DNA of 47,532 nt. Source: Muribaculaceae bacterium (GTDB lineage: Bacteria; Bacteroidota; Bacteroidia; Bacteroidales; Muribaculaceae). Positions 21,730-36,268 of this stretch are shown piece by piece. Under the pieces are notes generated by a model. That model made no database searches. It had not been told where the DNA came from and was given only the letters and a program-made list of their open reading frames with translations. Where the stretch lies: positions 1 to 47,532 of the forward strand of contig JAFLTX010000009.1 in the NCBI GenBank assembly GCA_022509145.1, written 5' to 3'. Within the stretch, counting starts at the first letter, position 1, and the number at the start of each line of letters is the position of its first letter. A program made the translations under genes and the position numbers.

Positions 21730-23205
21730 ATGAAGTCTCTGAGTTTCTGCTTTAAAATTCATCAGCCGTTCAGGCTCAAAAGATATCGCTTCTTCGACAT
21801 CGGCAACGACCATTACTACTACGATGACTTTGCCGACGATGAAATCATCTCGCGCGTAGCCGCCAGCAGCTACATCCCGATGGCAAAGGTGCTCCTCGAG
21901 ATGATCGAGAAGAGCAACAAGAAGTTTAAGTTTGCCGTAATGATCTCGGGCACAGCCATCGAGCAGTTCCAGCTCTATGTGCCTGAGGTGATCGACCTCT
22001 TCAAGCAGCTCGCCGACACCGGCTGTATGGAGATTCTTAGCGGCACGTATTCCCACTCTCTGGCATCGCTCGAGAATGTGGAGGAATTTGTGCGCGACGT
22101 CAAACTGCATGACGAGACCATCTACCGCGTGTTCGGTCTGAAACCGAAAACGTTTGCCAATACCGAGCTTATTTACGACGACGATATAGCTCTCATAATC
22201 AAGAGTATGGGGTTTGAGTCGGCCATCACAGAGGGAGCCAAGCACATCCTTGGTTGGAAATCGCCCAATTATCTCTACTCGGCTTCATCGGTGCCCTCGC
22301 TCAAGCTGCTATTCACCAACAGCAAGCTGAGCCGCGACATCACCCGCAACTTCAACAACCCCCACTGGCACGAATATCCTCTCACCGCCGACAAGTATAT
22401 GAGTTGGATTGCCGCCCTTCCGAAAGAGGAGCAGGTAGTGAATCTCTGCATGTCGCTCGATACTTTCGGCACCTTCCTGCCGGAGAGCTGCGGCATCTTC
22501 GAGTTTATGAAGGCGCTGCCGCATTTCGCCAAGGAGATGAACGTGGAGTTTGCCACGCCTTCCGAGATCTCCAAGAAACTCAAACCGGTAGGGGAGATGG
22601 TGGTGATGCACCCGATCTCAGGCGTAGACGAAGCCCGCGACGTGTCGGCCTGGATGGGTAACGAGCTGCAGAAAGAAGCCCTCCGCAAGCTCTACGATCT
22701 CTCGGAGCGTGTGAACCTCTGCCACGACCGTCGTCTGAAGCAAGACTGGGAATATCTGCAGAGCAGCGACCACTTCTATTATATGAGCACCAAGAATCTT
22801 GACGACGGTGCTTCCCATGCCGCCTTCAGCCCCTATGATTCTCCGTATTCGGCTTTCACCAACTACATGAACGTGCTCGCGGATTTCACGGTGAGAGTCG
22901 ACGGCCAGTTCCCCCAGGAGATCGGCAACGAAGAGCTCAACTCGCTGCTGCTCACTATCAAAAACCAGGCCTCGGAAATCGAGGAGCTCAACAAGAAGAT
23001 GGCTTCCCTGCGAACAAACATCCTCAACGCCGACGACACCGTCTACTCCAAAGTAGAGGCTGAACCGAAAGAAACAGCCCCGGCAGCCAAAACAGTAGCC
23101 CCGGCTCCAAAGAAAAGCGCCTCCAAGAAGGCAGCTTCTGCAACCAAGAAAGCCGCCCCTTCAGCTAGAAAGCCTGCTCCTGCCAAAAAGGCGCCCAAAA
23201 AGTAA
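21730..23205 (+). CDS. GH57 alpha-glucan hydrolase or branching enzyme, Lys/Ala/Pro-rich tail
   Basis: This cytoplasmic GH57 family enzyme acts on alpha-glucans; members are amylases, 4-alpha-glucanotransferases or branching enzymes. The 491-residue product shows GH57 motif 1 (HQP at 11-13), motif 2 (SGTAIEQF at 73-80), the nucleophile region with Glu146 in NTELIY, and a later Asp in CMSLDTFGTF (about 244). From about residue 435 the protein becomes a low-complexity tail of Lys, Ala, Pro and Ser (for example KKSASKKAASATKKAAPSAR), probably disordered and basic. It ends the glycogen operon. The choice between hydrolase and branching activity cannot be made from these motifs. Confidence 0.88.
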   Translation: MKSLSFCFKIHQPFRLKRYRFFDIGNDHYYYDDFADDEIISRVAASSYIPMAKVLLEMIEKSNKKFKFAVMISGTAIEQFQLYVPEVIDLFKQLADTGCMEILSGTYSHSLASLENVEEFVRDVKLHDETIYRVFGLKPKTFANTELIYDDDIALIIKSMGFESAITEGAKHILGWKSPNYLYSASSVPSLKLLFTNSKLSRDITRNFNNPHWHEYPLTADKYMSWIAALPKEEQVVNLCMSLDTFGTFLPESCGIFEFMKALPHFAKEMNVEFATPSEISKKLKPVGEMVVMHPISGVDEARDVSAWMGNELQKEALRKLYDLSERVNLCHDRRLKQDWEYLQSSDHFYYMSTKNLDDGASHAAFSPYDSPYSAFTNYMNVLADFTVRVDGQFPQEIGNEELNSLLLTIKNQASEIEELNKKMASLRTNILNADDTVYSKVEAEPKETAPAAKTVAPAPKKSASKKAASATKKAAPSARKPAPAKKAPKK

Positions 23206-23222
23206 TTGAAGCAAGCATCCCT

Positions 23223-23260
23223 CCAAAGAAGGCTGTCGCGCCAAGCGGCAGCCTTCTCGA
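23223..23260. repeat. Dispersed 38-nt stem-loop repeat, copy 1
   Basis: This 38-base element contains the arms GAAGGCTGTCGC (23228-23239) and GCGGCAGCCTTC (23245-23256) around a five-base loop, with one G-U pair. A second copy at 33221-33258 differs only at one loop base. No T-run follows it, so it may be a REP-like element rather than a plain terminator. It lies 17 bases after the GH57 stop. Confidence 0.8.
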
Positions 23261-23314
23261 ATAAATATAGCTATCGCCCAAGAGGCAAAGAGCAAAACAT
23301 GAATCAGGACTTAA

Positions 23315-23333
23315 AAAAATCTATCCGATTTTT
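23315..23333. terminator. Weak A+T hairpin after the SusC/D operon
   Basis: AAAAATC (23315-23321) and GATTTTT (23327-23333) form a seven-pair stem with a five-base loop. It lies 28 bases past the susD stop on the minus strand and may end that transcript. The stem is A+T-rich and not strong. Confidence 0.35.
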
Positions 23334-23360
23334 CAACGACCGCGAAGTGCGCGCTGCCCC

Positions 23361-24776
23361 TTAATAATTCTGCGTTAGAGAAGGATTGTGGCGTGTTGCA
23401 CTGGCCGGGAACGGCAGAATCCAGAGAGGAGATTCGGGATCAAGAGTGTACGTGCCGTAGTCTTTGAGATTGCGCTTAATCGTAGTCTTGTATTTTTCTT
23501 CAGAATTCCAACGTTTGGTGTCGAAGAAATTCTCGTATGTACCTATACATTCAATCCATTTTGAGGTGCGCAAGAGAGTCATAGCCGTCTCCTCATTAAG
23601 AGGGAACATATCAAAGGTGCGGGTATATGGAGTATAATTTTCAACCCTGTAGCTTCTTACCTTGTCGATAAGAGCCAGCCCGTCCCTTATGCTTCCTGTG
23701 CGGATGAGACACTCAGCCAGATCGTAATACACATGGTCGGAGGTAATTCCGTAAGGATTATTACAAGTGTTCCAACCCATATACATTCTTACTCCTTCGA
23801 GGCCACTGTACATTTTTCCGTAGCCATAGTCCCAGCCAGAAGAACCGCAATATTTCAACACATAATCGTTTTTCTCAAATTTAGAATCGGTCTCTAAAGA
23901 GATGCATACCGTTGTAGGAGACACTCGGATGCCATACCCAATCCAGACATAATAATTAGTGGCATTGCGGCTTATCTTCCATTCCTGATCATCCTTTATA
24001 TAGCGGCGGTCTTCAATTACTCCGTTTATGTCAAGGGCCTCCTGAAGATATGGAAGGGCCTCCTGATATCTTTTCATTTGCAAGAGCACCTTTCCCCTAA
24101 CAGCGTTGCCGAAAGCCCGGTCAGGGTTAACTACATCGTCATTTTCAATAGGGAGCGCCGCTATTACATCATCTGCGCAGTCAGCGAGAATTTTCTGATA
24201 ACTCTCTTCAAGTGTCAATTTTTTCTTCTGCCGATTGTTGTCGACATCTTCCACATAGGCGATACCGCCAAGTTCAGAAGCTGTGTTTTCGTCATATTGT
24301 GCCGCATGGATATTGATACAAAGCCAATGCAGATAAGCTCGCATTATCCGTGCTTTTGCTTTTATCTCAACCTTACGATATTCTTCACCTTGCACTTTGT
24401 CGATTTTGTCAAGTATCGTATTCATGTAATAAACGTACTTATAGATGGCCGAATACCTTGAACTGTTTTGGCTAAGCATAGCTCTATCTACAGATTCGTC
24501 ATAGGTCAAGTATGCGTAGTTGAGTGTATTGGGCGAAGCTATCACTTCAGGGATTGTAACAAACATTCCTAATGATTCATTACAGATCATTGAAATGTCG
24601 GTAGCTGGAGCCTCTTCGAGAGAATATTCCTGGTTAAGGAGCAATTCAAGATCGTCAAGATTGTCAAGAACAGTCTCTCCCTTCGGCACAATGTCAAGTT
24701 TGCTGTCGCAGGAACAGATAACGACACCGACTAAAAGCAGACAGATTGCTGACAAATATTTATAAATATTTTGCAT
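23361..24776 (-). CDS. SusD/RagB-type outer-membrane nutrient-binding lipoprotein
   Basis: This is the surface lipoprotein partner of the SusC-like porin encoded just upstream; together they capture and import a nutrient. The 471-residue product has a lipoprotein signal ending at Cys23 (VGVVICSC). N-terminal helices of the SusD type follow, with tetratricopeptide-like repeats near NAVRGKVLLQMKRYQEALPY. The C-terminal part has the usual pattern LIRTGSIRDGLALIDKVRSY, then LLRTSKWIECIGTYENFFDTKRW and LPFPASATRHNPSLTQNY. It is shorter than many polysaccharide-binding SusD proteins. It starts 19 bases after the SusC stop. The ligand is not identifiable; no carbohydrate-active enzyme lies in this operon. 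Confidence 0.9.
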   Translation of the reverse strand: MQNIYKYLSAICLLLVGVVICSCDSKLDIVPKGETVLDNLDDLELLLNQEYSLEEAPATDISMICNESLGMFVTIPEVIASPNTLNYAYLTYDESVDRAMLSQNSSRYSAIYKYVYYMNTILDKIDKVQGEEYRKVEIKAKARIMRAYLHWLCINIHAAQYDENTASELGGIAYVEDVDNNRQKKKLTLEESYQKILADCADDVIAALPIENDDVVNPDRAFGNAVRGKVLLQMKRYQEALPYLQEALDINGVIEDRRYIKDDQEWKISRNATNYYVWIGYGIRVSPTTVCISLETDSKFEKNDYVLKYCGSSGWDYGYGKMYSGLEGVRMYMGWNTCNNPYGITSDHVYYDLAECLIRTGSIRDGLALIDKVRSYRVENYTPYTRTFDMFPLNEETAMTLLRTSKWIECIGTYENFFDTKRWNSEEKYKTTIKRNLKDYGTYTLDPESPLWILPFPASATRHNPSLTQNY

Positions 24777-24795
24777 GAATAATTTTCTTTAAGAA

Positions 24796-27700
24796 TTAGA
24801 AACTGAAATAGAGACTGAAAGTATAACTACGGGGAGTCTTTAGAGAGCGTGTTCCGTAAATTGGATTGTTGGCTTCAGGATCAATTCCCAGATCATTGCG
24901 TGCCCAGGTGCAGACATTATTTACCTGGAATCTAAGTCGCAGATCGTCAAGACGCAGTTTCTTGCAAATGGTTTCAGAAAACTGATATGAGAGTACTATG
25001 TTCCTTATTTTCATAAAGTCGGCACTTACCACATTGGTATTCATATATTGGCCATAGCCTACTACGTTTGAACCTCCGGCATATCCGTTGGCCGGATAAA
25101 GGGTAGGATCCCCTGATTTCCAATAATTGAGATAGGCAGAAGGAACCGCGTCGATTTCAGACAGTCCGTTGTAGCCGTAAATCGCGCCTTCCGACGTATA
25201 CCAGTCAGTGTTGGCCCTCATGACGTGGCCGGTATACCATGCCAGCATTATTGAAAGGTCAAATCTCTGCCAACTTAAGCGGGGTGTGAAACTGCCCATC
25301 ACCTTGGGATCCAGCGACCCGCAATACACGATATCTTCCGGAGTGAAGAAATCAGTGTCGATGTTGGCTGTCTGCACATTACCCTCGTGGTCTCTCCAGG
25401 AATAGTATTGCATATTCCCCTCCGAGACCATTCCCGCGAAATCGTAACTGAATATTGAGTTTGCGGGATAACCCTTATGCAAAGTGTTGCTTGACAAGGC
25501 TTCCAGACCAGTAGCCGGAAGATGGTCAACTTTTGTCACCTTATTATGATTATATGCAATGTTGAAGCTAAGGTCAAGTCCGAATTCCGAAGGAGATGAT
25601 GTAGTGATGATTGGTGAATTCAACTGCAGCTCAAAACCGGTGTTTACCATCTTGCCGTTATTGATTGTCAATTGCGACCATCCCGAAGTTGGGTCCATGT
25701 CGGTTGTAGAAAGGAGATCAGAACTGTTCTTTCTGTAAAAATCTATAGAACCGGATAATTTAGAACCCCAGAAAGAGAAATCTACACCAACATTCCATGT
25801 CCCAGTCTTCTCCCATCTCAGCTGATCGTTGGGAGGCGTATTGAGGAAGGCATATTTATAGCCATAAATATCATTGAGGCCGATGGAAGCAGTAAGCAAT
25901 GACGAGATGTTTTGGGCAATGTTTCCGGTCAGACCATACGAAGCTCTCAGCTTCAGAACACTCACCCAGTCCAGCTCTCTCATGAAGTTTTCATTCTGGA
26001 TATTCCAGCTAAGACCGACACTCCATAACGGGCGCCCTCTAAATTTAGGATCGGCGCCGAAAAGGTCTGTTTTATCAAGACGGCAGCTAAGCGACGCAGC
26101 ATAACGCGTGTCGTAGATATAGTTCGCCACTCCATAGACAGAATAAAAGCGGTGAAGAATGTGAGTGGTCGCGAAGTTGTCGCTGTCTGGAGCGCCAAAC
26201 ATCGCATTATCAGCACCAAGCACACCCGCTGAGCCCTGCATATCCTTAATCAGCCCCCAGTTCATCATATAGTTGCTGTTGGTCTGGGTTTGGTCGTCGT
26301 ATCCCATAAGCACATTCCCGTAAGTTTTCTCTTTCTGTTCGCGATATTCAAAACCTATCGCCGCCGAGATGTCATGCTTTTCCGCGATTATATTGTTGTA
26401 ATCGCTCTGGATGCGGAAAGTATAGAAAGAACCCTCGGACGTTGCCGTGTTGAGCATTCCGCCCTCCGGAATATAATGCGTGACAGCTCCCGTAGTCTTG
26501 TTTTGAGACGTATACAGGTTGTATAAAGACCGCATCGAATATGAGTTTTTATCCCACATTTGGTCGGATTTGTAATAGATATCCTCATATTGAAACATAG
26601 CATTGGCAGTCCAGCCATCGAGAATATTGACTTGAGCATTGACCCAGGGACGGATGTTGGTACGCCGGGTGATCATGGTATTTAAACCGAGTTCCTGCAC
26701 CTGGTTGTAACTTCCACTCTTCAGCCCGTAGACGGGATTTGAAAAAGCGGCGTTTTCCAGTCCGAAAGCAGCCTGCATCTGATTGAGAGAACCATCCGGG
26801 TTATACATGCTGAGATATGGATTAAAAGCGGTAATCTGCCCCCATTCGCTATCGAAAAGGTAGGATTGCACCCTCTCGCTCACGAGATTGAGACCCATGG
26901 AAAGATCGAGTATCTTGCCCACCTTTAGCGAGCCTCGATAGTTGAGCATAAAGTTGTTGGCTGAGGAGCCTACCGTACCCATATTATTGTTTTCATAGTT
27001 TAGCACCAGGCTGTTCGACATTGCCTTACCGTTGTATCGGATTGCAAGATTGTATTGCTGCTGCACACCCGTTCGTTCCATTACCCTTTGCCATTCCCTT
27101 CGATAGTTGTTGGATGCAAGGGTGTTTAGACTCTGAGAAAGAGTGGCATCATCAATCTCTCCCAGGGAGTGACGGAGCATAAGCAAAGTTGCCGGCGAAA
27201 TGGAGTAGTCGCGGCCCGAACGGTGATAATTCAGAAGAGAATTGAAGGCCGTGCGGTCGGCCAGACCATTGATATAATTGAAATTATATTGTTCCAGTTC
27301 GATGAGTTCGGCAGCTGATGCCCAGCCCATATAATTGTAATCGTTTTTCTCACTTATTGTAACATCTGCGTTAATCTCAACCTGAAGTTTGTCTTCAAGC
27401 GCCCGCTTTGTGGTGATTACTATAACGCCGTTGGACGCTCTTGCACCATATATCGCTGCGGCGGCAGCATCCTTAAGAACAGTGATGTTTGATATTTCGT
27501 AGGGGTTTACACTCTCTAATCCACCCTCTATCGGCAGACCGTCTACCACTATAAGGGGCTGTGTGTTTGCCTGAAACGAGCCTGTGCCTCGAATGGATAT
27601 CTCCTTGCCGTTGCCGTTGTCATAGGTCACAAGACCAGGCACCTGGCCTTCCAGATTGGAAGAGATATCCCCGGTATAACGTCTACTCAGTTCTGAGGCC

Positions 27701-28329
27701 GAGATGTTCTGATATGCACCCGTGGCATTTTCCCTTTTGAGAGTCTGGTAACCGGTCACAACCACCTCGCTCATCATTTGAGGTTCAGTCTCCAGACTTA
27801 CCATCACCATCTTCTCGTTCGGACTGACCTTGATTGTTTTGGTCTTCATGCCTACATAGGAGAAACGCAGGGTGTTTTTCCCTTTCTCCATCGGTACGGA
27901 GAAATGACCGTCAAGGTCAGTGGAGGCTCCAGAAGTAGTGCCTTCTACAAAGACAGAAACCCCGACAAGCGGTTCTCCTTCTTCGTCTGTAACTACCCCG
28001 GTAACTATTTTCTTGAAATAAGGCGCGTCTGACGATGCTTTCGAAAGCACAATTGTTTTGTCGATAATTTCATATTTCACTTCCAGTTCGTCACAGAAAC
28101 GGTTGAGAACTTGTTCCAGTGAGGCGTTCTTAAGTGTGAGTGTTACCGTTGCCCCCTGTGTGATCAAATTCTTTTGATATACGAATTCGTAGCCCGACTG
28201 CTTCTGGATTTCAGCCATAGCCTGTTCTACCGGAGTGGCACGAAACTGCACGTTAAGGTCTTTAGCCATAACGAAAGCCGGCAATAAAACAGCCAAGGTT
28301 AGCAATAAAATTCTTAATTTAAATCTCAT
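24796..28329 (-). CDS. SusC/RagA TonB-dependent receptor with STN signalling domain
   Basis: This is an outer-membrane TonB-dependent importer that can also signal. The upstream TTG at 28338 is in frame, but the ATG at 28329 gives MRFKLRILLLTLAVLLPAFV and a signal peptide ending VMA. The mature N terminus is a secretin/TonB short N-terminal (STN) domain (about residues 24-95). A carboxypeptidase-regulatory-like domain (about 110-195, GVVTDEEGEPLVGVSVFVEG) comes next, then the SusC plug (EVVVTGYQTLKRENATGAYQ to ASNGVIVITTKRA), then a 22-strand barrel to residue 1177. STN domains in such receptors contact FecR-type anti-sigma factors, and a fecR gene lies 20 bases upstream. The substrate is unknown. 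Confidence 0.93.
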   Translation of the reverse strand: MRFKLRILLLTLAVLLPAFVMAKDLNVQFRATPVEQAMAEIQKQSGYEFVYQKNLITQGATVTLTLKNASLEQVLNRFCDELEVKYEIIDKTIVLSKASSDAPYFKKIVTGVVTDEEGEPLVGVSVFVEGTTSGASTDLDGHFSVPMEKGKNTLRFSYVGMKTKTIKVSPNEKMVMVSLETEPQMMSEVVVTGYQTLKRENATGAYQNISASELSRRYTGDISSNLEGQVPGLVTYDNGNGKEISIRGTGSFQANTQPLIVVDGLPIEGGLESVNPYEISNITVLKDAAAAAIYGARASNGVIVITTKRALEDKLQVEINADVTISEKNDYNYMGWASAAELIELEQYNFNYINGLADRTAFNSLLNYHRSGRDYSISPATLLMLRHSLGEIDDATLSQSLNTLASNNYRREWQRVMERTGVQQQYNLAIRYNGKAMSNSLVLNYENNNMGTVGSSANNFMLNYRGSLKVGKILDLSMGLNLVSERVQSYLFDSEWGQITAFNPYLSMYNPDGSLNQMQAAFGLENAAFSNPVYGLKSGSYNQVQELGLNTMITRRTNIRPWVNAQVNILDGWTANAMFQYEDIYYKSDQMWDKNSYSMRSLYNLYTSQNKTTGAVTHYIPEGGMLNTATSEGSFYTFRIQSDYNNIIAEKHDISAAIGFEYREQKEKTYGNVLMGYDDQTQTNSNYMMNWGLIKDMQGSAGVLGADNAMFGAPDSDNFATTHILHRFYSVYGVANYIYDTRYAASLSCRLDKTDLFGADPKFRGRPLWSVGLSWNIQNENFMRELDWVSVLKLRASYGLTGNIAQNISSLLTASIGLNDIYGYKYAFLNTPPNDQLRWEKTGTWNVGVDFSFWGSKLSGSIDFYRKNSSDLLSTTDMDPTSGWSQLTINNGKMVNTGFELQLNSPIITTSSPSEFGLDLSFNIAYNHNKVTKVDHLPATGLEALSSNTLHKGYPANSIFSYDFAGMVSEGNMQYYSWRDHEGNVQTANIDTDFFTPEDIVYCGSLDPKVMGSFTPRLSWQRFDLSIMLAWYTGHVMRANTDWYTSEGAIYGYNGLSEIDAVPSAYLNYWKSGDPTLYPANGYAGGSNVVGYGQYMNTNVVSADFMKIRNIVLSYQFSETICKKLRLDDLRLRFQVNNVCTWARNDLGIDPEANNPIYGTRSLKTPRSYTFSLYFSF

Positions 28330-28349
28330 ATGTTTCAATATTCGCAGTA

Positions 28350-29522
28350 TTATGGATGCTTGTGATCAACTATAATCTTATTTCCTATTGTCTTGAAGGA
28401 TACGTCGCCCGATTTCTCAAGAATTAGCATTGCAGTGGTGAAATCGGCATAACGGGGTATACTTCCCATGAAAATCATTTCTTTAAGTTTGGGGTCTTTG
28501 AACTCAAATTCAAAATCATACCATCTTCCAAGGTCGTTCATTATCTGAAGGAGAGTCTGGTCTTCAAAAACGAATCTTCCATGGCGCCAACCCGTTACAG
28601 TCTCAATGTTTACATTCCTTACTTTTGCAGACAAGGATTTTTTGTTGAATACTGACTGAGTGCCCGGAGAAATGAACAATTCTCCGCCTTCGCCGTCAGC
28701 CCTTCTTACAGAAATCGAGCCTTTTGCAAGGGAAGTGACCACAGCTTCATCTTCAGGGTATGAACGAATGTTGAACTCTGTGCCGTAAACCTTGATTTCC
28801 TGACTGTCGCATTCCACAAAAAAAGGATTATGTTTTACATCTTTTGTCACGGCGAAATATGCCTCTCCGGTCACCTTCACACGTCTCGATGTAGAGGAAA
28901 AGTTGTCCGGGTAAGTCAACGTTGAAGATGAGTTGAGCCATACTTTGGTGCTGTCGTCGAGCATAACCATGAATTCACCACCACGAGGCACCACGAGCAC
29001 CACAGGATCGGTACCATGCTTTGATTTCTTGAGTTCAGAAATCGCTATTCCGTTGACGTTATCAACCTTCCCGACAGGTATGCGTCTGCCGTCTGAGACT
29101 ACATAAGCCATAGTTTCCCCAGGATCAAGACTGTCGATTGAGAATGCATCGGTTTGTGCTATAGCGTCTGCAGAGGGCTCAGGTGTCACTGCAGTTTTCC
29201 GCAGAGTGGGCGCCACAATAAGAATAAGAGCTATGATAGCGGCAACAGCCAGGGCTGACAGATATGCATATCGTGCCGCAGGTTTGCGTGAATTCATCTC
29301 TATTCTTCTCCTCATCTCGTTGCGCGCCTTATCGGGATTGACCAGCATTCGTTTCCGATAATTGTCGGCGAGGCTCTCCCGGTCGGATAGCCGGGAGAGC
29401 AGCTCTCGATTGGTGGGTGACTGGTCTGCCCATCCTTCAAGCTCTTCACGCTCTGCGTCGCTAAGAGTTTCGAGTAGATACTTATAAATGAGGTTGATTA
29501 TACGTTCAGAATTGTCGGCCAT
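28350..29522 (-). CDS. FecR-type anti-sigma factor
   Basis: This inner-membrane regulator receives the signal from the STN domain of the adjacent SusC and controls an ECF sigma factor. The 390-residue protein has a cytoplasmic N-terminal anti-sigma part (about 1-80, MADNSERIINLIYKYLLETL). One membrane helix lies near residues 86-106. The periplasmic FecR domain covers about 170-285 (LDDSTKVWLNSSSTLTYP, KVTGEAYFAVTKD, VYGTEFNIRSY), and a DUF4974 domain about 320-388 (DLGRWYDFEFEF). It lies between the TlpA gene (15-base gap) and susC (20-base gap). No sigma gene is directly upstream, which is unusual; the likely partner is at 32602-33168. Confidence 0.93.
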   Translation of the reverse strand: MADNSERIINLIYKYLLETLSDAEREELEGWADQSPTNRELLSRLSDRESLADNYRKRMLVNPDKARNEMRRRIEMNSRKPAARYAYLSALAVAAIIALILIVAPTLRKTAVTPEPSADAIAQTDAFSIDSLDPGETMAYVVSDGRRIPVGKVDNVNGIAISELKKSKHGTDPVVLVVPRGGEFMVMLDDSTKVWLNSSSTLTYPDNFSSTSRRVKVTGEAYFAVTKDVKHNPFFVECDSQEIKVYGTEFNIRSYPEDEAVVTSLAKGSISVRRADGEGGELFISPGTQSVFNKKSLSAKVRNVNIETVTGWRHGRFVFEDQTLLQIMNDLGRWYDFEFEFKDPKLKEMIFMGSIPRYADFTTAMLILEKSGDVSFKTIGNKIIVDHKHP

Positions 29523-29537
29523 TTGTAGCGGTCTATA

Positions 29538-30941
29538 TTATTTTACAAAAGAAAGGATCTGCGATTCAACTTCTGCCTCAGAGGGGCGGATGGCATCAGC
29601 GTTTGCAATAGAACCGTCGGCATTCAGAATGATGAAGCGCGGGATACCGTTGATATTCATGGCTGTAAAGAATTTCTCTGCGTCCTCCCCGTCGAGCAAA
29701 TACTGCGGCCATGATGGATTGTCTCTCTTCAGTTTTTCGAGCCAAGCGTTACGATCGACATCAGAAGAGATGCTTACGAAAGCAACGTCGGGATTCCCTT
29801 TCATTTTTTCCACAAGTTTCTCGAGATAAGGAATCTGTTTCACGCAGGGGCCGCACCAAGTAGCCCAAAAATCGATATAGGTAACCTTCCCCTTGAGGTC
29901 GGAAAGTTTTTTCCGTTCACCTTCCGGGGTGATGATAACGGGGTCGTAAGGCAACGGATCGCCTGAAGCAATCTCTTTTATTGAGTTAGCCTTGAGATTG
30001 TATTTTTCAATCATTTCCGGATAATCGGCGGCTATTTTTGCATACTCCTGCATATACGCCTGAGCTTGCTCAAGAGAGGGCTGTCCATAAGCGAAAAACA
30101 TATAGGGAAGTTGGTTGAACATCACTCTCTTTGTGTTTTGGTTTGTTATCTGTTTGTCTATGATTCGGAGTTGTTCCAATCCATGCGCAAGGGGGTCTTC
30201 TGCCTGGATGCTCTTGGTCTGGAGATTGAGCCACGGGAATATAAGGGTGCACTCCAGACTCATGTCGTCGTTGGGGTCGATGGTATTTACGAGTTCCACA
30301 TATCCCGGAACCTCAGCTTCTGTAATCCCATCCTCATAAGCCTTGTCCATGAGGATGCGAAGTTTGGTCCAGGTGTACATGCGGTCGCGCATCTTTTCAT
30401 AAAATTCTCGTTTCTTCTTATCTTTTATTATGGAAGCATTAGGAATCTTTGCCGTTTCGCTTTCAAGAACGGTGAGGAAAAAATCTGCATTTTTCCCTTC
30501 CTCATCATCAGGGCTGAAATATTTCATAGAGTCGAAAGCTTGGCAGAGCGCGTTGTAGTAAGTGTTGATGTCGGTGTTGTCTCCCTTATAAGTGATTTGC
30601 AGTTTGCCGTCGTCACCGCGTGAAATTGTAGCTTCAACGCTTTTCCCTTTTTCAAGGTACAGACCGAAATAATCGTTGTCTACAAGAATCTGCGTTCTAA
30701 GTCCCTCATCGGTCAAAAGAGAATCTGGGAAAAAGAATCGGCCGGCTGAATCCGGAATTATTTCGATGGTTCGCACATTCACCAAATCATGATCCGGGGC
30801 ATAATTGAATGCCATGTCGGAGAATTCGGAATCAGTTATTGTGCCTGTAAAAACGGGCTTCTGCTCTGCGGCTGCGCATGATTGAAAGCTTAGCAAACAT
30901 GCGGCCAAAAGAGTCTTGATTGAAAAATTTCTAAGGTTCAT
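29538..30941 (-). CDS. TlpA/ResA-like thioredoxin-fold protein with long N-terminal domain
   Basis: This is a secreted or lipid-anchored thiol-disulfide reductase. The first 22 residues form a signal with a Cys at 22 (LLSFQSC); the residue at -3 is Phe, so lipid attachment is uncertain. Residues 28-320 form a domain like those preceding TlpA in Bacteroidetes (beta-rich first, then helical). The C-terminal thioredoxin domain has the active site WCGPC at 362-366 (DFWATWCGPCVKQIPYLEKL) and the cis-Pro region NINGIPRFIIL. It is the first gene of the minus-strand operon with fecR, susC and susD, in the place where an ECF sigma gene often stands. It may keep imported or surface proteins reduced; this is inference. 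Confidence 0.9.
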   Translation of the reverse strand: MNLRNFSIKTLLAACLLSFQSCAAAEQKPVFTGTITDSEFSDMAFNYAPDHDLVNVRTIEIIPDSAGRFFFPDSLLTDEGLRTQILVDNDYFGLYLEKGKSVEATISRGDDGKLQITYKGDNTDINTYYNALCQAFDSMKYFSPDDEEGKNADFFLTVLESETAKIPNASIIKDKKKREFYEKMRDRMYTWTKLRILMDKAYEDGITEAEVPGYVELVNTIDPNDDMSLECTLIFPWLNLQTKSIQAEDPLAHGLEQLRIIDKQITNQNTKRVMFNQLPYMFFAYGQPSLEQAQAYMQEYAKIAADYPEMIEKYNLKANSIKEIASGDPLPYDPVIITPEGERKKLSDLKGKVTYIDFWATWCGPCVKQIPYLEKLVEKMKGNPDVAFVSISSDVDRNAWLEKLKRDNPSWPQYLLDGEDAEKFFTAMNINGIPRFIILNADGSIANADAIRPSEAEVESQILSFVK

Positions 30942-31002
30942 ACTTATTATATAGTTGTTATTCTCTTTTCGTCTTTTATCTGAGAATCCCTTTTCCCAGG
31001 TG

Positions 31003-31030
31003 TTTATATTAAATACGCAACTGATGTCAA
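31003..31030 (-). promoter_or_regulatory. Candidate promoter of the TlpA-FecR-SusC-SusD operon
   Basis: On the minus strand TTGACA (31025-31030) is followed after 16 bases by TATAAA (31003-31008). That resembles the Escherichia coli sigma-70 consensus, not the Bacteroidetes TTTG/TAnnTTTG pattern, which I do not find before the TlpA gene. It lies 62 bases upstream of the start codon. It may be a site for an alternative factor or a chance match in A+T-rich DNA. Confidence 0.3.
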
Positions 31031-31134
31031 AAAGTATACAGAGAACGAAATTTGAAATTATGTGAAAAAAATTAAAAAATATGATATACTAATTTCTGAT
31101 GTTTGCGTATTTTTTAAAAACTAATTTTTTAAAT

Positions 31135-32472
31135 ATGAAGAAAAATTTACTTTGCATGATGCTCTTAACGAGCGCTTCGGCATTTGCAGCCGCCCCTCAG
31201 ACGGGTTTTTATCTGTCGGGAATCAATGGTGAAACCTCAGCTACGGCAAACAACACTCTGACTTATGTTGCCGGAGATGCTGAAGATGAAGAGGAAGGCA
31301 TTTACCGTTTTATCAATGAGGAGATGACGGTCAATTCCTGCGAAAGCGGATTTGTAGCAATCGGCATTGAAGGTATGAAACTGGGATATGATGCCCAAAA
31401 TATCATAAGTGCTGAAAATATGATTAACGACTATGCCACAATAGGCTATCTTACTGAAGGCGGCCCTGCTTACAACTGCCAGCTGACCCCCGGCACTTAC
31501 AAAGTGATACTTGCCAGCTATCAGGAAGATGAAACAGTGCCTATGACTTGGAGCATTATGTTCACTTCCTTATCTTCCGGCGACAATGTTCAAAGCTATT
31601 ATCTCCTTGGTTTTAACAACGAAGATGAACCTAGCCAATCAAATATGTTTATAAGGGAAGAGGAAGAAGATGAAGAGGGGGGAGAACCGATCATTATGTA
31701 CACTTTCCCAAAATTCTATATAAGCGAGACTTCCGGTTTCTGGGTTGCCGATAAGAACTTCAAGGAAGTATTTGGTGCGATGGGCGGAGATCCCATCTCG
31801 GATGAAATGCCTTTCGCAATCATGGTCCCCGACGGCGCTCCTGTAGCCTCTAATCTTACTCCTGGATACTATACAGTGAATTTCTCACCTATGGGTGCTA
31901 TGGGTATGATATCATTCTTATTATGTGAAGATCAAACCCCGGCAGATCAGTGCACTTATTATCTCACTGGTTTCGGCGGCGATCCTGTAAAGTTTGAGAG
32001 AATTGTGGAGAAATCAGAATATGTAGATGAAGAGACAGGAGAAACCATTACTTCAGAGTCGATTAATTACGTAATTGAGAAAGTCCATCTTACATCATGT
32101 CCCGACGGGTTCCTGATCGAAAGCGAGGGCGACCAGTTGTTCACATTCGGCCTCAACTTAGATATGGCAGCATTTTTTGGTGACACTGTAAGCGAGGAAA
32201 ATAGTGGTATCGGTTTCCTTGGCATCTATGGAAATCCCATCAAGTGGAACATGGCAGAAAACGACTACACCGTGACTTTCTTTACAAGTGGCACACTGGG
32301 TAATGTAACGTTTACAGTTTATGGAACCGATAATGATTCCGTAGAGGGGATAGAAGCTGAAGATACAACTGTTCCGGTTTATTACAACCTTCAGGGTCAA
32401 AAAGTAGTAAATCCCGACAAGGGCATCTTTATCCGTGTCACTGGCAATAAAGTTGAAAAAATTGTGAAATAA
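31135..32472 (+). CDS. Secreted acidic protein with three tandem repeats and C-terminal YYxLQG tail
   Basis: I do not recognise a named family. The frame opens at 31099, but the ATG at 31135 gives MKKNLLCMMLLTSASAFAAA, a clear signal peptide. The 445-residue protein has three related units: about 24-148, 154-265 and 274-398. Each starts with a strand such as FYLSGINGE, YYLLGFNNE or YYLTGFGGD, has a middle block with SxxSGFxx/SCPDGFLI, and ends in a beta-rich segment (TPGTYKVIL, TPGYYTVNF, NDYTVTFF). It is strongly acidic, with runs of Glu and Asp. The tail VYYNLQGQKVVNPDKGIFIR resembles a C-terminal signature of secreted Bacteroidales proteins and recurs in the M6 protease of this window. It is divergent from the TlpA operon and ends in a terminator. 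Confidence 0.75.
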   Translation: MKKNLLCMMLLTSASAFAAAPQTGFYLSGINGETSATANNTLTYVAGDAEDEEEGIYRFINEEMTVNSCESGFVAIGIEGMKLGYDAQNIISAENMINDYATIGYLTEGGPAYNCQLTPGTYKVILASYQEDETVPMTWSIMFTSLSSGDNVQSYYLLGFNNEDEPSQSNMFIREEEEDEEGGEPIIMYTFPKFYISETSGFWVADKNFKEVFGAMGGDPISDEMPFAIMVPDGAPVASNLTPGYYTVNFSPMGAMGMISFLLCEDQTPADQCTYYLTGFGGDPVKFERIVEKSEYVDEETGETITSESINYVIEKVHLTSCPDGFLIESEGDQLFTFGLNLDMAAFFGDTVSEENSGIGFLGIYGNPIKWNMAENDYTVTFFTSGTLGNVTFTVYGTDNDSVEGIEAEDTTVPVYYNLQGQKVVNPDKGIFIRVTGNKVEKIVK

Positions 32473-32507
32473 GAGGATAACAGGTAAAAAACATTAAATA
32501 ATTCTAC

Positions 32508-32546
32508 AAAAAGGCGCGTTCTAACCCCAAAGACGCGTCCTTTTTT
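32508..32546 (+). terminator. Intrinsic terminator after the three-repeat secreted protein
   Basis: AAAAAGGCGCGT (32508-32519) pairs with ACGCGTCCTTTTT (from 32533) with one mismatch around a 13-base loop, and ends in a run of six T. It begins 36 bases after the stop codon. Confidence 0.75.
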
Positions 32547-32601
32547 CTTATATTTCAAAATTTTTGTAATTTTATGCGGAATTTAATAACGATGTTAATA
32601 A

Positions 32602-33168
32602 TTGACGTTATCAGAATCCATATTCGAAGATTTTCAGAGAGGGAAGATTGAAAGTTTCTATACTTATATTTATCCCGACCTGCTCGTTTATGCCACAAAT
32701 CTCCTTCGCGGAGATTCGGCCATCCGGGCTGAAGACTGCGTGCAAGATGCTGTAGAAGTTTCGTATGTGAGGCGCATGGAGTTCGTTTCGGGTAGGCAAT
32801 GGATGTCATTTATTATCACCTGCATCAGAAACCGCGCAATATCCATCCTTCGGCATGAGGATGCTCAAAATAAATATCTGACCCATTTGGAAATGGAGCT
32901 GACAAATTTCAAGGATGCGTATCATGACTATATTGAATTGGAGACAAAGTCAAGATTATACAACGCCATCGCTTCGCTCCCGGAAGATCTTAAACAGATA
33001 TTCAACCTCAGTTTTGAGCAAGGATTGCGAAATCCTCAGATAGCGGCTCAGTTGGGTGTGGCGGAAATAACGGTAAAGAAGAGGAAGGCCAAGTTGATTA
33101 ATCGCCTACGCATCCTTCTCAACGATGATAACTCCACACTGATGTTATTCTTCCTCTTGGCAGCTTAG
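32602..33168 (+). CDS. ECF-type RNA polymerase sigma factor
   Basis: This alternative sigma factor is probably held by the FecR protein encoded at 28350-29522. The 188-residue product has a sigma region 2 (about 25-85: LVYATNLLRGDSAIRAEDCV, QWMSFIITCIRNRAISILRH). A region 4 helix-turn-helix (about 118-175: IASLPEDLKQIFNLSFEQG, LRNPQIAAQLGVAEITVKKR) follows. An in-frame stop sits directly before the TTG at 32602 and no ATG occurs until well inside region 2, so TTG is the likely start. A nearby ATG at 32592 is in another frame and soon hits a stop. It is transcribed in the opposite direction to the FecR operon, with one gene between, and is followed by a copy of the 38-nt stem-loop. Confidence 0.88.
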   Translation: MTLSESIFEDFQRGKIESFYTYIYPDLLVYATNLLRGDSAIRAEDCVQDAVEVSYVRRMEFVSGRQWMSFIITCIRNRAISILRHEDAQNKYLTHLEMELTNFKDAYHDYIELETKSRLYNAIASLPEDLKQIFNLSFEQGLRNPQIAAQLGVAEITVKKRKAKLINRLRILLNDDNSTLMLFFLLAA

Positions 33169-33220
33169 GATATCTCCACGAGAGGTGTAGATTTTTATTG
33201 ATTTGAAAACTAAAATTCCC

Positions 33221-33258
33221 CCAAAGAAGGCTGTCGCCCCAAGCGGCAGCCTTCTCGA
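33221..33258. repeat. Dispersed 38-nt stem-loop repeat, copy 2
   Basis: This is the second copy of the element at 23223-23260, identical except for one loop base. The arms are 33226-33237 and 33243-33254. It lies 52 bases after the sigma-factor stop. Its right end coincides with the start of the gene remnant at 33258. Confidence 0.8.
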
Positions 33259-33401
33259 TTGATGGCCGCCAATTACTGGCGCTGGCTGAAAAGGAAATTG
33301 ACCGGGGCCGCATTCAACCCATGAGTGCTACTCACGAGTTCAAATTCAAAGCCCCGGATGGAAAAATGCTCAAAGCCGACGTGTTGTCTGCTGATGAGTA
33401 A
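33258..33401 (+). pseudogene. C-terminal remnant of an unidentified gene
   Basis: An open frame runs from the edge of the stem-loop repeat to a TAA at 33399-33401, encoding 47 residues that begin I-D-G-R-Q-L-L-A-L-A-E-K-E-I. It contains MSATHEFKFKAPDGKMLKAD near its end. The composition looks like real protein rather than random translation, but there is no suitable start except an internal ATG at 33321, which would leave 26 residues. The stop is followed at once by the stranded apbE tail in the opposite orientation, as expected for the 3' end of a former convergent neighbour of apbE. I do not recognise the protein. Confidence 0.4.
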
Positions 33402-33473
33402 TTCGGGGGGAGGTTAGATGTTTTTGGAGATGACGGTGTAGTCGGAGAGGATGAGGAGGTAACCGAGGAGGAG
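33400..33473 (-). repeat. Stranded apbE 3' end (left copy of direct repeat)
   Basis: Bases 33412-33461 are identical over 50 bp to 35298-35347, and the likeness extends to about 70 bp with a few differences. Read on the minus strand, it encodes the last 19 residues of ApbE (ending YLLILSDYTVISKNI) and the stop codon, but nothing upstream of it belongs to apbE. With the right copy it brackets the AbiE pair, like the left attachment site of an island inserted at a gene end. Confidence 0.85.
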
Positions 33474-33496
33474 AAAATAAAATAATTTGCAATGAG

Positions 33497-33544
33497 TTTG
33501 CGATTCTAATCAAAAAATGATTAACTTTGCAAACATATTGCAAA
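33497..33544 (+). promoter_or_regulatory. abiE promoter with overlapping inverted-repeat operator
   Basis: TTTG (33497-33500), 21 bases, then TAACTTTG (33522-33529) is a full match to the Bacteroidetes promoter pattern. An inverted repeat TTTGCAA (33526-33532) and TTGCAAA (33538-33544) with a five-base spacer overlaps the -7 box and the expected start point. A further direct TTTGCAA occurs at 33486-33492. AbiEi antitoxins are known to repress their own promoter by binding inverted repeats, so this is a likely AbiEi operator. Confidence 0.75.
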
Positions 33545-33564
33545 TTAAACCCACTCTAATCTGA

Positions 33565-34377
33565 ATGGCAAAAGAATCAATATTTAACTGGGTTGAACAG
33601 CGAAAGTTGCGCGGGTATTATCTCTTCGGTTATGAGGAAGTGAAAAATGCTTTTGCTTCAAAATCAGAGCAATACGTTTCGACGTCGCTTACAAGACTCA
33701 TAGCACAGAAGAGAATAATAAATCCTGCAAAAGGTTTTTATGTTATCATTCCCACGGAGTATGCTCTTACAGGGATTGTACCGGCCACATTTTATATCAA
33801 CGGAATGATGAACCATTTAAAAAGAGATTATTATGTAGCGCTTCTTAGCGCAGCCTCTTTTTATGGAGCGGCCCATCAGAGACCTCAGTCATTTTATGTT
33901 ATTAATAATCAAACCACAATAAGAAGTGGAGAGAGGGCTGGTGTCAACTTTTTGTTTATCAGAATCAAAAATATTTACGATAATTATATAATCCCTCATA
34001 AAGGGAAACTTGGAGACATCAATGTATCGTCACCAGAATTGACAGCAATCGATTTAGTTGCATATCAAGGCAAAATAGGTGGCCTTAACCGTGTAAGCAC
34101 AGTTTTGAGTGAATTGGTTGATAATTTGAACTTTAGTAAGGTAGATAGAGAGTTCTTTAAAATCCACAAGTTACCAGTTTACCAACGATTGGGTTATATT
34201 TTAGAGGACGTGTTGGAGGAATATGAAATAGCGGAAACTCTTTACAAGAAAATGCTTGAGTATGGATTTACAAAACTCAGAGGCATACCATTTAAAATTG
34301 GAAAACCGACGAGCGGTTGTATGCAAAATACAAAGTGGAAAGTAATTGTTAACCAGGAAATTGCAATTGACGAATGA
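33565..34377 (+). CDS. AbiEi-family antitoxin of a type IV toxin-antitoxin pair
   Basis: In AbiE systems this protein represses the operon and neutralises the nucleotidyltransferase toxin; the pair acts against phage by abortive infection. The 270-residue product has an N-terminal helical winged-helix part (about 1-70: NWVEQRKLRGYYLFGYEEVK, STSLTRLIAQKRIINPAKGF). The AbiEi body follows, with YYVALLSAASFYGAAHQRPQ, GVNFLFIRIKN and VSSPELTAIDLVAYQGKIGG, all typical of the family. Its stop overlaps the toxin start in an ATGA, so they are translationally coupled. The gene is much richer in A+T than the core genes, a sign of transfer. Identity is secure at family level. Confidence 0.92.
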   Translation: MAKESIFNWVEQRKLRGYYLFGYEEVKNAFASKSEQYVSTSLTRLIAQKRIINPAKGFYVIIPTEYALTGIVPATFYINGMMNHLKRDYYVALLSAASFYGAAHQRPQSFYVINNQTTIRSGERAGVNFLFIRIKNIYDNYIIPHKGKLGDINVSSPELTAIDLVAYQGKIGGLNRVSTVLSELVDNLNFSKVDREFFKIHKLPVYQRLGYILEDVLEEYEIAETLYKKMLEYGFTKLRGIPFKIGKPTSGCMQNTKWKVIVNQEIAIDE

Positions 34378-35174
34378 TACCTGAATTGGCAATACAAGAG
34401 TGGCAGGAACACGCTCCCTGGCCGGAAGTAGAACAAGTGGAACAAGATCTACTTATTTGTAGGGCATTAGTAGAAATCTATTCCGATCCTTTTCTTGCAA
34501 AAAATCTCTCTTTTCGCGGAGGAACTGCATTACATAAATTGTTCTTAAGTCCACAACCGCGTTACAGTGAGGATATAGATCTGGTGCAAGTCAAGGCCGC
34601 CCCTATCAAGGAAACTATTATGCACTTACAGGAGGCATTATCATTTCTAGGAGATGCATATATAAAGCAGAAACGCAATAACAATACTCTTTTGTATCGA
34701 ATAGAATCAGAGGTTGAGCCAAGAAAACCAATCCGCATCAAGGTAGAAATAAATTGTAAGGAACATTTCAGTGTGTTCCCTATGATTAAAGTTCCCTTTA
34801 TTGTTGAGAATAAATGGTTTAACGGCCAATGTGAAATACTTACTTATCAGATTGATGAGCTGCTTGGCACTAAACTACGCGCTTTATATCAACGACGCAA
34901 AGGGCGTGACATGTTTGACCTTTACAAGGCCTTAACAACTGTTGAAATAAATGAGGATAAGGTATTGGAATGTTACAGAAAATACATGGATTTTGTTGTA
35001 GATCATATCCCCACGTATAAAGAGTACATACTCAATATGGAAGATAAGATGCAAGACGATGAGTTCCTGGGAGATACAGTAGGCATTATAAGAAGCGGAG
35101 AGAACTATGACGCTAAAGATTGCTATGCCTTAGTTAAGTCAAGACTGCTTGACAGGATGAATCTTAATAAATAG
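34374..35174 (+). CDS. AbiEii-family nucleotidyltransferase toxin
   Basis: This is the toxin half of the AbiE pair, a DNA-polymerase-beta-like nucleotidyltransferase; studied relatives add nucleotides to tRNA and stop growth. The 266-residue protein has the family motif FRGGTALHKLF (Gly49-Gly50-Thr51) followed by YSEDIDLV with metal-binding Asp67 and Asp69. A third region, QIDELLGTKLRALYQRRKGR followed by DMFDLYKAL, is also conserved, so the active site looks intact. It begins inside the antitoxin stop (ATGA, 34374-34377). After it come 114 bases without a gene and then the right-hand apbE repeat. Confidence 0.93.
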   Translation: MIPELAIQEWQEHAPWPEVEQVEQDLLICRALVEIYSDPFLAKNLSFRGGTALHKLFLSPQPRYSEDIDLVQVKAAPIKETIMHLQEALSFLGDAYIKQKRNNNTLLYRIESEVEPRKPIRIKVEINCKEHFSVFPMIKVPFIVENKWFNGQCEILTYQIDELLGTKLRALYQRRKGRDMFDLYKALTTVEINEDKVLECYRKYMDFVVDHIPTYKEYILNMEDKMQDDEFLGDTVGIIRSGENYDAKDCYALVKSRLLDRMNLNK

Positions 35175-35210
35175 AATTAAATCCGGTCTAAAGAAACGAA
35201 AATTGCCTTA

Positions 35211-35220
35211 TTACCGGTAA
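35211..35220. other. Ten-base palindrome in the gap after abiEii
   Basis: TTACCGGTAA is a perfect palindrome in the 114-base stretch between the toxin stop and the right copy of the apbE repeat. The rest of this gap shows no gene and no strong terminator. Confidence 0.4.
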
Positions 35221-35288
35221 GAAAATCAACCGAAAATAGTAAATCTATGGCTGACTCCTTCCGTTAACTATACTTAGTGAATAAAGTC

Positions 35289-35359
35289 AATCGGGGGGGT
35301 TAGATGTTTTTGGAGATGACGGTGTAGTCGGAGAGGATGAGGAGGTAGCCGAGGCGGAG
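35289..35359 (-). repeat. apbE 3' end, right copy of direct repeat
   Basis: This copy includes the 50-bp block (35298-35347) shared exactly with 33412-33461 and is part of the intact apbE gene. It contains the apbE stop (35300-35302) and a run of seven G just after it; the left copy has six G plus AGG. The few differences between copies suggest that one tail came with the inserted DNA. Confidence 0.85.
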
Positions 35360-36268
35360 GCTGTCGCAGAGGGCGACGGCTTTCTCTTTCCCCAAGGCCA
35401 TGCAGCTGGTGGCGATGGCGTCGGCTTCCACGCATGTCGGGGCCATGATGGTAGCGCTCAATACGTCGGTGGTGACGGGACGACCGGTGGTGGCCGATAT
35501 GGTATGCCCGAATCTTTGGCCGTCAACTTCGTGGAAGTTGCGGTAGTTTCCCGAGGTGGCAAGAGCGGCGTCGGTGAGCGTCACGACACACTGGATGTCG
35601 CCGTCGGAGTCAGGGTCGGGTTGGTCTATCCCGATTCGCCACACCTCGCCGTTGGGATTCTTCCCCTTGGCCCTGATCTCGCCGCCGATTTCCACCAGGT
35701 AATCCTTCACGCCGTTTCGCTCGAGCATGTCGGCAACGCAATCCACGCCGTAGCCCTTGGCGAGAGCCGAGAAGTTGAATTCGATCGAGGGATTCTCTTT
35801 GACGAGCCGGTTTCCCTGCAGCGCCGTTTTGTCAATGCCTACAAGCTGCAACAGGCTGTCGAGCCGCAATGTGTCGGACGAAACCTCATGGCCCTGGCCA
35901 AAGCCCCAGGCGCGGATCAGTGGCGCCAGCGTGGGGTCGAAGGCACCGCCGGTGAGCCGGGATATCTCGCGGCTCTTGGTATAGACAGCGATGAAATGGC
36001 CGTCGACACTGTCGGTGCGGTTTTCGTTGAGCGCCGTCATCCGCGACGACGGATTGAAAGGGGAGAGGGAGAGGTCGATCTCGTTGATCACCGCAATGAT
36101 TGAATCGGCAAGACTCTCCGAAGAGCGATACGTAACGTGATAAACCGTGTTCCAGGCTATCCCTTCTTCGTGGATATATTCGCTTCCGGCCGGGCGGCTG
36201 CACGAGGCGAGCGCAAGCAGGAGCGCTGCCGGGAGAAGAAGGGTTTTCTGTTTTAGTATTGCTCTCAT
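35300..36268 (-). CDS. apbE: FAD:protein FMN transferase (ApbE), lipoprotein
   Basis: ApbE attaches FMN from FAD covalently to Ser/Thr residues of target flavoproteins such as NqrB/C and RnfG/D, outside the cytoplasmic membrane. The 322-residue product has a lipoprotein signal ending at Cys23 (LLLALASC). Family motifs are present: YLVEIGGEIRAKGKNPNG, the metal/flavin region FGHTISATTGRPVT and ADAIATSCMALG near the C terminus. It lies ten bases after the M6 protease gene on the minus strand and is probably co-transcribed with it. Its last codons form the right-hand copy of the repeat bounding the AbiE island, so its 3' end appears to have served as an insertion point without loss of function. 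Confidence 0.93.
   Translation of the reverse strand: MRAILKQKTLLLPAALLLALASCSRPAGSEYIHEEGIAWNTVYHVTYRSSESLADSIIAVINEIDLSLSPFNPSSRMTALNENRTDSVDGHFIAVYTKSREISRLTGGAFDPTLAPLIRAWGFGQGHEVSSDTLRLDSLLQLVGIDKTALQGNRLVKENPSIEFNFSALAKGYGVDCVADMLERNGVKDYLVEIGGEIRAKGKNPNGEVWRIGIDQPDPDSDGDIQCVVTLTDAALATSGNYRNFHEVDGQRFGHTISATTGRPVTTDVLSATIMAPTCVEADAIATSCMALGKEKAVALCDSLRLGYLLILSDYTVISKNI

Follow-up and report, generated by a model that had tools for sequence, protein, structure and literature searches.

Restriction-modification (RM) genes are inserted with long target duplications, variable in length and of the order of 100 bp, as described in three papers (PMC3874152, PMC3031569, PMC1643837). In these papers, the long target duplication is credited to Nobusato et al. 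2000 and Furuta et al. 2010. The AbiE locus described here resembles the RM units in being a small addictive unit without a known mobile element, flanked by repeats of variable length, and RM units are, as here, often found beside rearrangements. A long direct repeat (67–77 bp) also flanks the insert here, whose cargo is AbiE rather than an RM system. Unlike the RM case, the cargo consists of a type IV toxin-antitoxin (TA) pair and single-gene defence candidates, the hosts are Bacteroidota, the duplicated blocks are mostly gene ends, and arrays of 3–4 copies occur. A second comparison is with the accretion of CIMEs in Streptococcus and elsewhere. As described in PMC5704250, these are integrase-less segments with gene-end repeats on both sides, arranged in tandem, as is also seen here. 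However, the cassettes described here contain one or two genes each, show no integrase or transfer remnants in the tested genes, and have targets that vary by locus. Integron arrays likewise have small cassettes in a row, with repeats of about 60–80 bp between them as in the clearest of our arrays, but here each locus has its own separator, copied from the gene end at that site, and no integron integrase was noticed. Finally, AbiE stabilises an integrative conjugative element of Streptococcus suis, according to PMC11062541. The same TA family is thus on a mobile element there, but it is carried by a large element, whereas here the pair is the whole insert. We found no paper in the open-access literature in which AbiEii is joined with a target site duplication. 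The loci bear on the question of how small TA and defence genes that lack a recombinase move between genomes.

The window, by which we mean the whole 47,532-nucleotide stretch that was analysed, contains a direct repeat of 67 bp at 33407–33473 and 35293–35359. The copies differ at three positions (33411, 33462, and 33469; 96% identity) and contain a perfect block of 50 bp, confirming the original prediction of a 50-bp perfect and about 70-bp near-perfect repeat around AbiE. A gapped alignment extends to 77 columns at 92% identity (33397–33473 and 35285–35359); when 151 bases were searched against the window, the E value was 7e-27. A 181-base query over the left copy found only two sites in the draft genome of 113 contigs, and these are the two repeat copies. 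The right copy (35285–35359, reverse strand) is the present 3' end of apbE, comprising the stop and the last 19 codons. The apbE gene (35300–36268, reverse strand) encodes 322 amino acids and is intact (PF02424, E = 6e-77). The left copy (33397–33473, reverse strand) is an orphan apbE tail, also with the stop and 19 codons, that is joined to no gene. It has two coding differences and one amino-acid change, LLLGY for LRLGY. The expectation that the right copy completes apbE and that the left copy is an orphan is therefore correct, but the count of two changes given with it is not, since there are three differences, two of them coding. An insertion at the gene end that leaves the gene whole, as had been proposed, is supported.

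The AbiE cassette (33474–35284, forward strand) lies between the two copies. It contains an inverted repeat (33483–33547) that has 30-nt arms, 80% complementary, and is located just before AbiEi. In AbiE systems, promoter inverted repeats are bound by AbiEi, and we take this one to be the likely, putative AbiEi operator. The AbiEi antitoxin gene (33565–34377, forward strand; 270 aa; PF09407, E = 4e-24; PADLOC AbiEi, E = 4e-88) is upstream of the gene for the AbiEii nucleotidyltransferase toxin (34374–35174, forward strand; 266 aa; PF08843, E = 4e-33; PADLOC AbiEii, E = 5e-113), and the ORFs overlap by 4 bases, which is the gene order of an AbiE type IV TA system. Both frames are open, both proteins score above the Pfam cut-offs, and they are the sole family-matched ORFs between the repeat copies. 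The idea of a minimal cargo without an integrase is supported. Its presumed candidate-defence character agrees with the PADLOC scores of AbiE; of five tested proteins that come from neighbouring cassettes or resemble them, four score as PADLOC phage-defence candidates. The segment is also A+T-rich, as stated originally, with a G+C content of 36.7% for 33474–35292 compared with 59.1% for apbE and 49.8% for the window. However, every 1-kb interval from 23 to 35 kb has a G+C content of 0.38–0.49, so the A+T richness reaches beyond the cassette and low G+C alone does not delimit the insert. All plasmid matches to the window AbiEii are below 60% identity, and one phage record covers 32% of the AbiE segment at 66.5%.

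Immediately to the left of the orphan apbE tail, a PADLOC PDC-S04-type gene, presumably BRO-N/Fic, persists as a frameshifted remnant (33252–33401, forward strand). It has homologues in 16 of 111 genus genomes, its own genome included, and an intact homologue at another locus (L041; loci are given L numbers here) scores as PADLOC PDC-S04. The 12-kb A+T-rich zone (23000–35300) also holds, to the left of the cassette, a SusC/SusD-type pair, FecR, a thioredoxin-like gene, and an ECF-type sigma gene. There are no tRNA genes in the window, and no recombinase, transposase, or transfer family was matched by any of 15 proteins tested between 21.7 and 45.7 kb of the window. The homologue of the gene that usually faces apbE, which we take to encode an outer-membrane-like product, is at 9263–11617, about 24 kb from apbE. 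Thus, apbE is separated from its usual neighbour, as it would be after a rearrangement, and this putative rearrangement has an end near the apbE 3' end.

Is the 3' end of apbE a hotspot for defence genes, as the original prediction had it? An apbE match was found in 88 of 101 genus genomes, including the window's own, the nearest other ApbE being 62% identical. The other 87 loci were searched for tail duplications with 12-base exact seeds. The sequence covered behind apbE was at most 9 kb and averaged 7.2 kb, some contigs stopping within a few hundred bases. None of them has a duplicated apbE tail, only seeds of 12–14 bases being found, and none has an AbiE match, with the window AbiE proteins among the queries. 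AbiEii of the window kind is present in 3 of 111 genus genomes. Together, the absence of duplicated tails from all 87 loci and the rarity of AbiEii lead us to reject apbE as a hotspot. We also looked for relatives that lack AbiE and keep both tail copies, which would have spoken against the proposed insertion, and saw none in these 87 loci; nor is there an empty apbE site from a close relative among them, the nearest ApbE being as distant as given above. The first window-gene homologue behind apbE is of the 9263–11617 type, in convergent orientation, in 43 of the 87 loci, and a second common gene, presumably rmuC-like, takes this place in 25. The ORFs behind apbE were read in 14 of the loci. 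Two of these, L094 and L101, have two lipoprotein-like genes in common. L101 (genome G045) also has an AAA ATPase gene (PF13304/PF13175) behind apbE, without a repeat, and the gene after it is presumably DUF4435-like. At 2.3–3.9 kb behind apbE in this locus (G045:C3), we take these genes to be a PARIS-like pair, again without a repeat.

The AbiE loci themselves gave a different result. They were collected from the family (12 of 397 genomes), from viral contigs (6), from the order (42 of 393 genomes), and from one genome each of 84,980 species (the best 80 of 548 confirmed matches). The order search gave 43 places, of which 39 were added; the window's own, one already counted, and two partial matches were left out. 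Removal of 5 duplicate loci left 133, and 12 with less than 100 bp of flank were dropped to give 121. Flanks of 600 bp were compared, with 305 gene-bounded intervals in the same loci as controls. A flanking direct repeat with E < 0.01 was found at 22 of 121 AbiE loci compared with 8 of 305 controls (Fisher p = 1.5e-7), and at E < 1e-6 the numbers are 17 and 4 (Fisher p = 4e-7). Among the control positives, those in L255 and L280 belong to cassette rows, and that in L198 is in a locus with nested repeats. A blind scan for repeats of 30–140 bp, 0.6–4.5 kb apart, found a qualifying pair in 19 of 132 AbiE loci compared with 3 of 87 apbE loci (p = 0.006), and in 16 of the 19 the pair brackets AbiE, where 3.2 would be expected if the pairs were slid. 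Because the loci are related by descent, all of these p values are indicative. Thus, the signature follows the cassette, not apbE, and the observation made in the window is confirmed and is more general than could be seen there. The interpretation first placed on it is partly supported. The remaining 99 of 121 AbiE loci have no flanking repeat, which may be the result of decay. AbiE is not clearly enriched at 3' ends or in convergent orientation, with a convergent right neighbour in 41 of 123 cases (controls, 73 of 277) and a co-directional left neighbour in 65 of 107 (controls, 203 of 277).

About nine of the flagged loci have repeats of other kinds; the nine loci that were set aside in a re-count were picked by eye after the scan. 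Rejected candidates include a multicopy element (L175), gene-family repeats (L200 and L224), tandem or low-complexity sequence (L229 and L281), hairpin or dispersed elements (L194, L215, L230, and L283), and promoter-like repeats (L211, L213, and L248). A 17-bp repeat in L180 was also set aside. Weaker or limited cases are L176, L198, L238, L241, L246, L256, and L280. L198, L239, L246, L256, and L280 are uncertain, and contig ends limit L176 (its right flank is too short for the 121), L238, and L241. In L198 (1686–8087) the repeats are nested: one pair, 71 bp at 97%, encloses two lipoprotein-like genes, and the other, 73 bp at 88%, encloses AbiE together with a putative AAA-like gene.

In the window, L156, L235, L247, L255, and L239, the copied block is a gene or tRNA end. 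The block in L156 is 38 bp, perfect, and starts at the stop codon of a convergent gene, presumably a permease. The L247 block, 119 bp at 91%, comes from the 3' end of a gene for 208 aa, and beyond its left copy lie an MNT gene and a HEPN fragment. The copied gene was found in 7 of 99 genomes, its own included, and the others have 30–38% identity. L239 has the first 20 nt of a gene, which we take to be umuC; this gene-start case (E = 8e-5) is uncertain. Three loci are arrays. In L235 a DegT aminotransferase gene (PF01041) contributes its 3' end in three copies; between them lie AbiE and a truncated gene, PDC-S27 by its PADLOC score (Pfam DUF234 below its cut-off). L220 has three copies beside a GHMP-kinase gene. 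In L255 there are four copies, one cut by the contig end, of the last 9 nt of tRNA-Asn plus the terminator. Between them lie a zeta-toxin-like gene (PF06414) without a PADLOC match, two unassigned genes, and AbiE. A search of 60 genomes for the left-hand gene of L255 gave its own genome alone. Successive copies have one common edge in L235 and nearly so in L220 and L255. The separators are copies of the local gene end and differ between the arrays. Target sequences are unrelated to one another, and some are gene starts (L239 and L288). The specificity for the 50-bp sequence that had been proposed is therefore unsupported, because the clean cases elsewhere use unrelated targets, two of them gene starts.

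Does the same architecture occur with other cargo? A search with the AAA/DUF4143 protein gave 6 places in 5 of 60 genomes, and two repeat-bracketed candidate-defence genes other than AbiE were found. In L285 the AAA gene is flanked on each side by a block made of the final 11 nt of tRNA-Leu and the terminator (70 bp, 87%), the same geometry as in L255. In L288 a Bro-N gene (PF02498), and not the AAA gene, is bracketed by a repeat of the 70 bp with which another gene, presumably wecB, starts. The L285 AAA protein and the L288 Bro-N protein are PDC-S01 and PDC-S13 in PADLOC. L289 has a 232-bp pair at 69%, L287 has no repeat, and L286 and L290 are one tandem duplication. In the latter (G471:C168:354-3315), the two tandem AAA/DUF4143 copies are 1912 bp apart and have at least 991 bp of identical DNA. 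Sister genome G735 lacks the L285 AAA gene and, between the two genes that are also neighbours in L285, has the tRNA block just once, with the tRNA inverted. A folD-anchored search for L285 gave matches in 90 of 99 genomes, and one of 29 other loci (L310) was informative.

The edges of the moving unit were compared in 42 pairs of loci with at least 78% identity and flanks of at least 600 bp on all sides. In 29 of these pairs (27 loci) the module alone is in common, with limits from −300 to +200 and medians of −87 and −11. The closest pairs in unrelated flanks are L179/L181 (96.5%) and L206/L220 (93.0%). AbiE modules in unrelated flanks have little in common beyond the putative operator and the ORFs, although in the less similar pairs the position of the edges may owe something to non-coding DNA drifting faster. 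The DNA common to L206 and L220 starts at −92 from the AbiEi match, which is the end of the left repeat copy of L220, and the left copy in the window likewise ends at −92. With other partners the L220 edge is at −69 to −71, and right edges vary. Since the module edges are variable, no fixed transposon end is seen in these alignments.

We suggest that the AbiE pair with its own putative operator is a minimal mobile cassette that was inserted at the apbE 3' end with a target duplication of about 70 bp, a reading that we consider somewhat probable. It starts from what is directly observed, namely the repeat and its restriction to one pair of sites, the cassette content, the recurrence above controls, the arrays, and the modules in unrelated flanks. 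From these, we infer that insertion itself produced the duplication, without a recombinase acting in cis. Module DNA would be joined to both strands of a stagger or gap of about 20–120 nt near a gene end, and fill-in of this stagger or gap would duplicate the target. The copy beside the gene body would keep apbE whole, and the other copy would be a decaying scar. Afterwards, the TA pair would resist loss. Like insertions would have arisen independently at the ends of unrelated genes in related loci, and repeated insertion at one gene end would give an array in which the separators are copies of that gene end. The unrelated targets, the use of gene starts as well as 3' ends, and the variable lengths of the blocks and ends of the modules favour target duplication, and G735, with a single block and no AAA gene, speaks for it as well. 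Against it stand the lack of an empty apbE site from a close relative, the 99 AbiE loci without a flanking repeat, the flagged loci with other kinds of repeat, the want of a clear preference for 3' ends, and the inverted tRNA of G735.

The main rival is that an integrase drove integration at gene ends and that the elements then decayed or were moved in trans, with the repeats as attL and attR. The AbiE segment would then be a remnant akin to a CIME, or else a mini-island mobilised in trans, and the arrays would be tandem accretions in which each element brought a new gene end. Restoration of the gene 3' end by the right copy would be accounted for, there are two tRNA 3'-end cases (L255 and L285), and successive copies with one common edge, as in L235 and nearly so in L220 and L255, are what site-specific recombination would give. 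ORFs that we take to be integrase-like and Mob-like are found beside AbiE in L136 and L154. Furthermore, accretion is an established process, as described in PMC5704250. However, no recombinase family was found in the 15 window proteins mentioned above or in the tested proteins of the array loci (part of the flanking genes), and a different integrase would be needed for each locus. Gene starts are copied too, only 9–11 nt of the tRNAs are copied, and the module ends vary. Weighing these points, we regard the integrase explanation as unlikely.

One-sided homologous recombination is a poorer explanation than insertion with target duplication, and we think it quite improbable. A donor carrying AbiE next to an apbE allele would have crossed over within apbE on the right. 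On the left, illegitimate joining within the resident tail would have left that older tail behind as the left copy. This would also account for the whole gene, and the copies differ at 3 of 67 sites, as two alleles would; against it, no other genome with AbiE beside apbE was found in the genus (AbiEii in 3 of 111, none in the 87 apbE regions), and it does not readily give 3–4 copies with a common edge. Chance or an assembly artefact, which a draft genome of 113 contigs might suggest, is very hard to believe given E = 7e-27 and the recurrence of the architecture in the independent assemblies of L235, L220, and L247, on contigs of 186–307 kb.

If insertion with target duplication is correct, the gene-end duplications would be a searchable footprint in many genomes, marking the edges of the moving unit, and the stacked copies would record the order of acquisition. 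Comparison of these loci suggests that small TA units may move on their own and sometimes stack in rows. If the mechanism holds, defence genes could collect behind almost any gene, not just in islands that bear an integrase. A wider and more doubtful possibility is that Bacteroidota have an integrase-free cassette system, in which TA pairs and single-gene defence candidates insert at gene ends and copy about 20–120 bp. As part of this same tentative reading, the cargo would comprise AbiE, AAA/DUF4143, AAA/DUF234, Bro-N, and zeta-type genes. Were this so, an integron-like array could start at any gene or tRNA, whose own tail would serve as the separator, and the joining mechanism would be new. 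In G170, the two AbiEii copies, at L151 (C26) and L157 (C9), are 91.6% identical over 817 bp, and both are located at contig ends.
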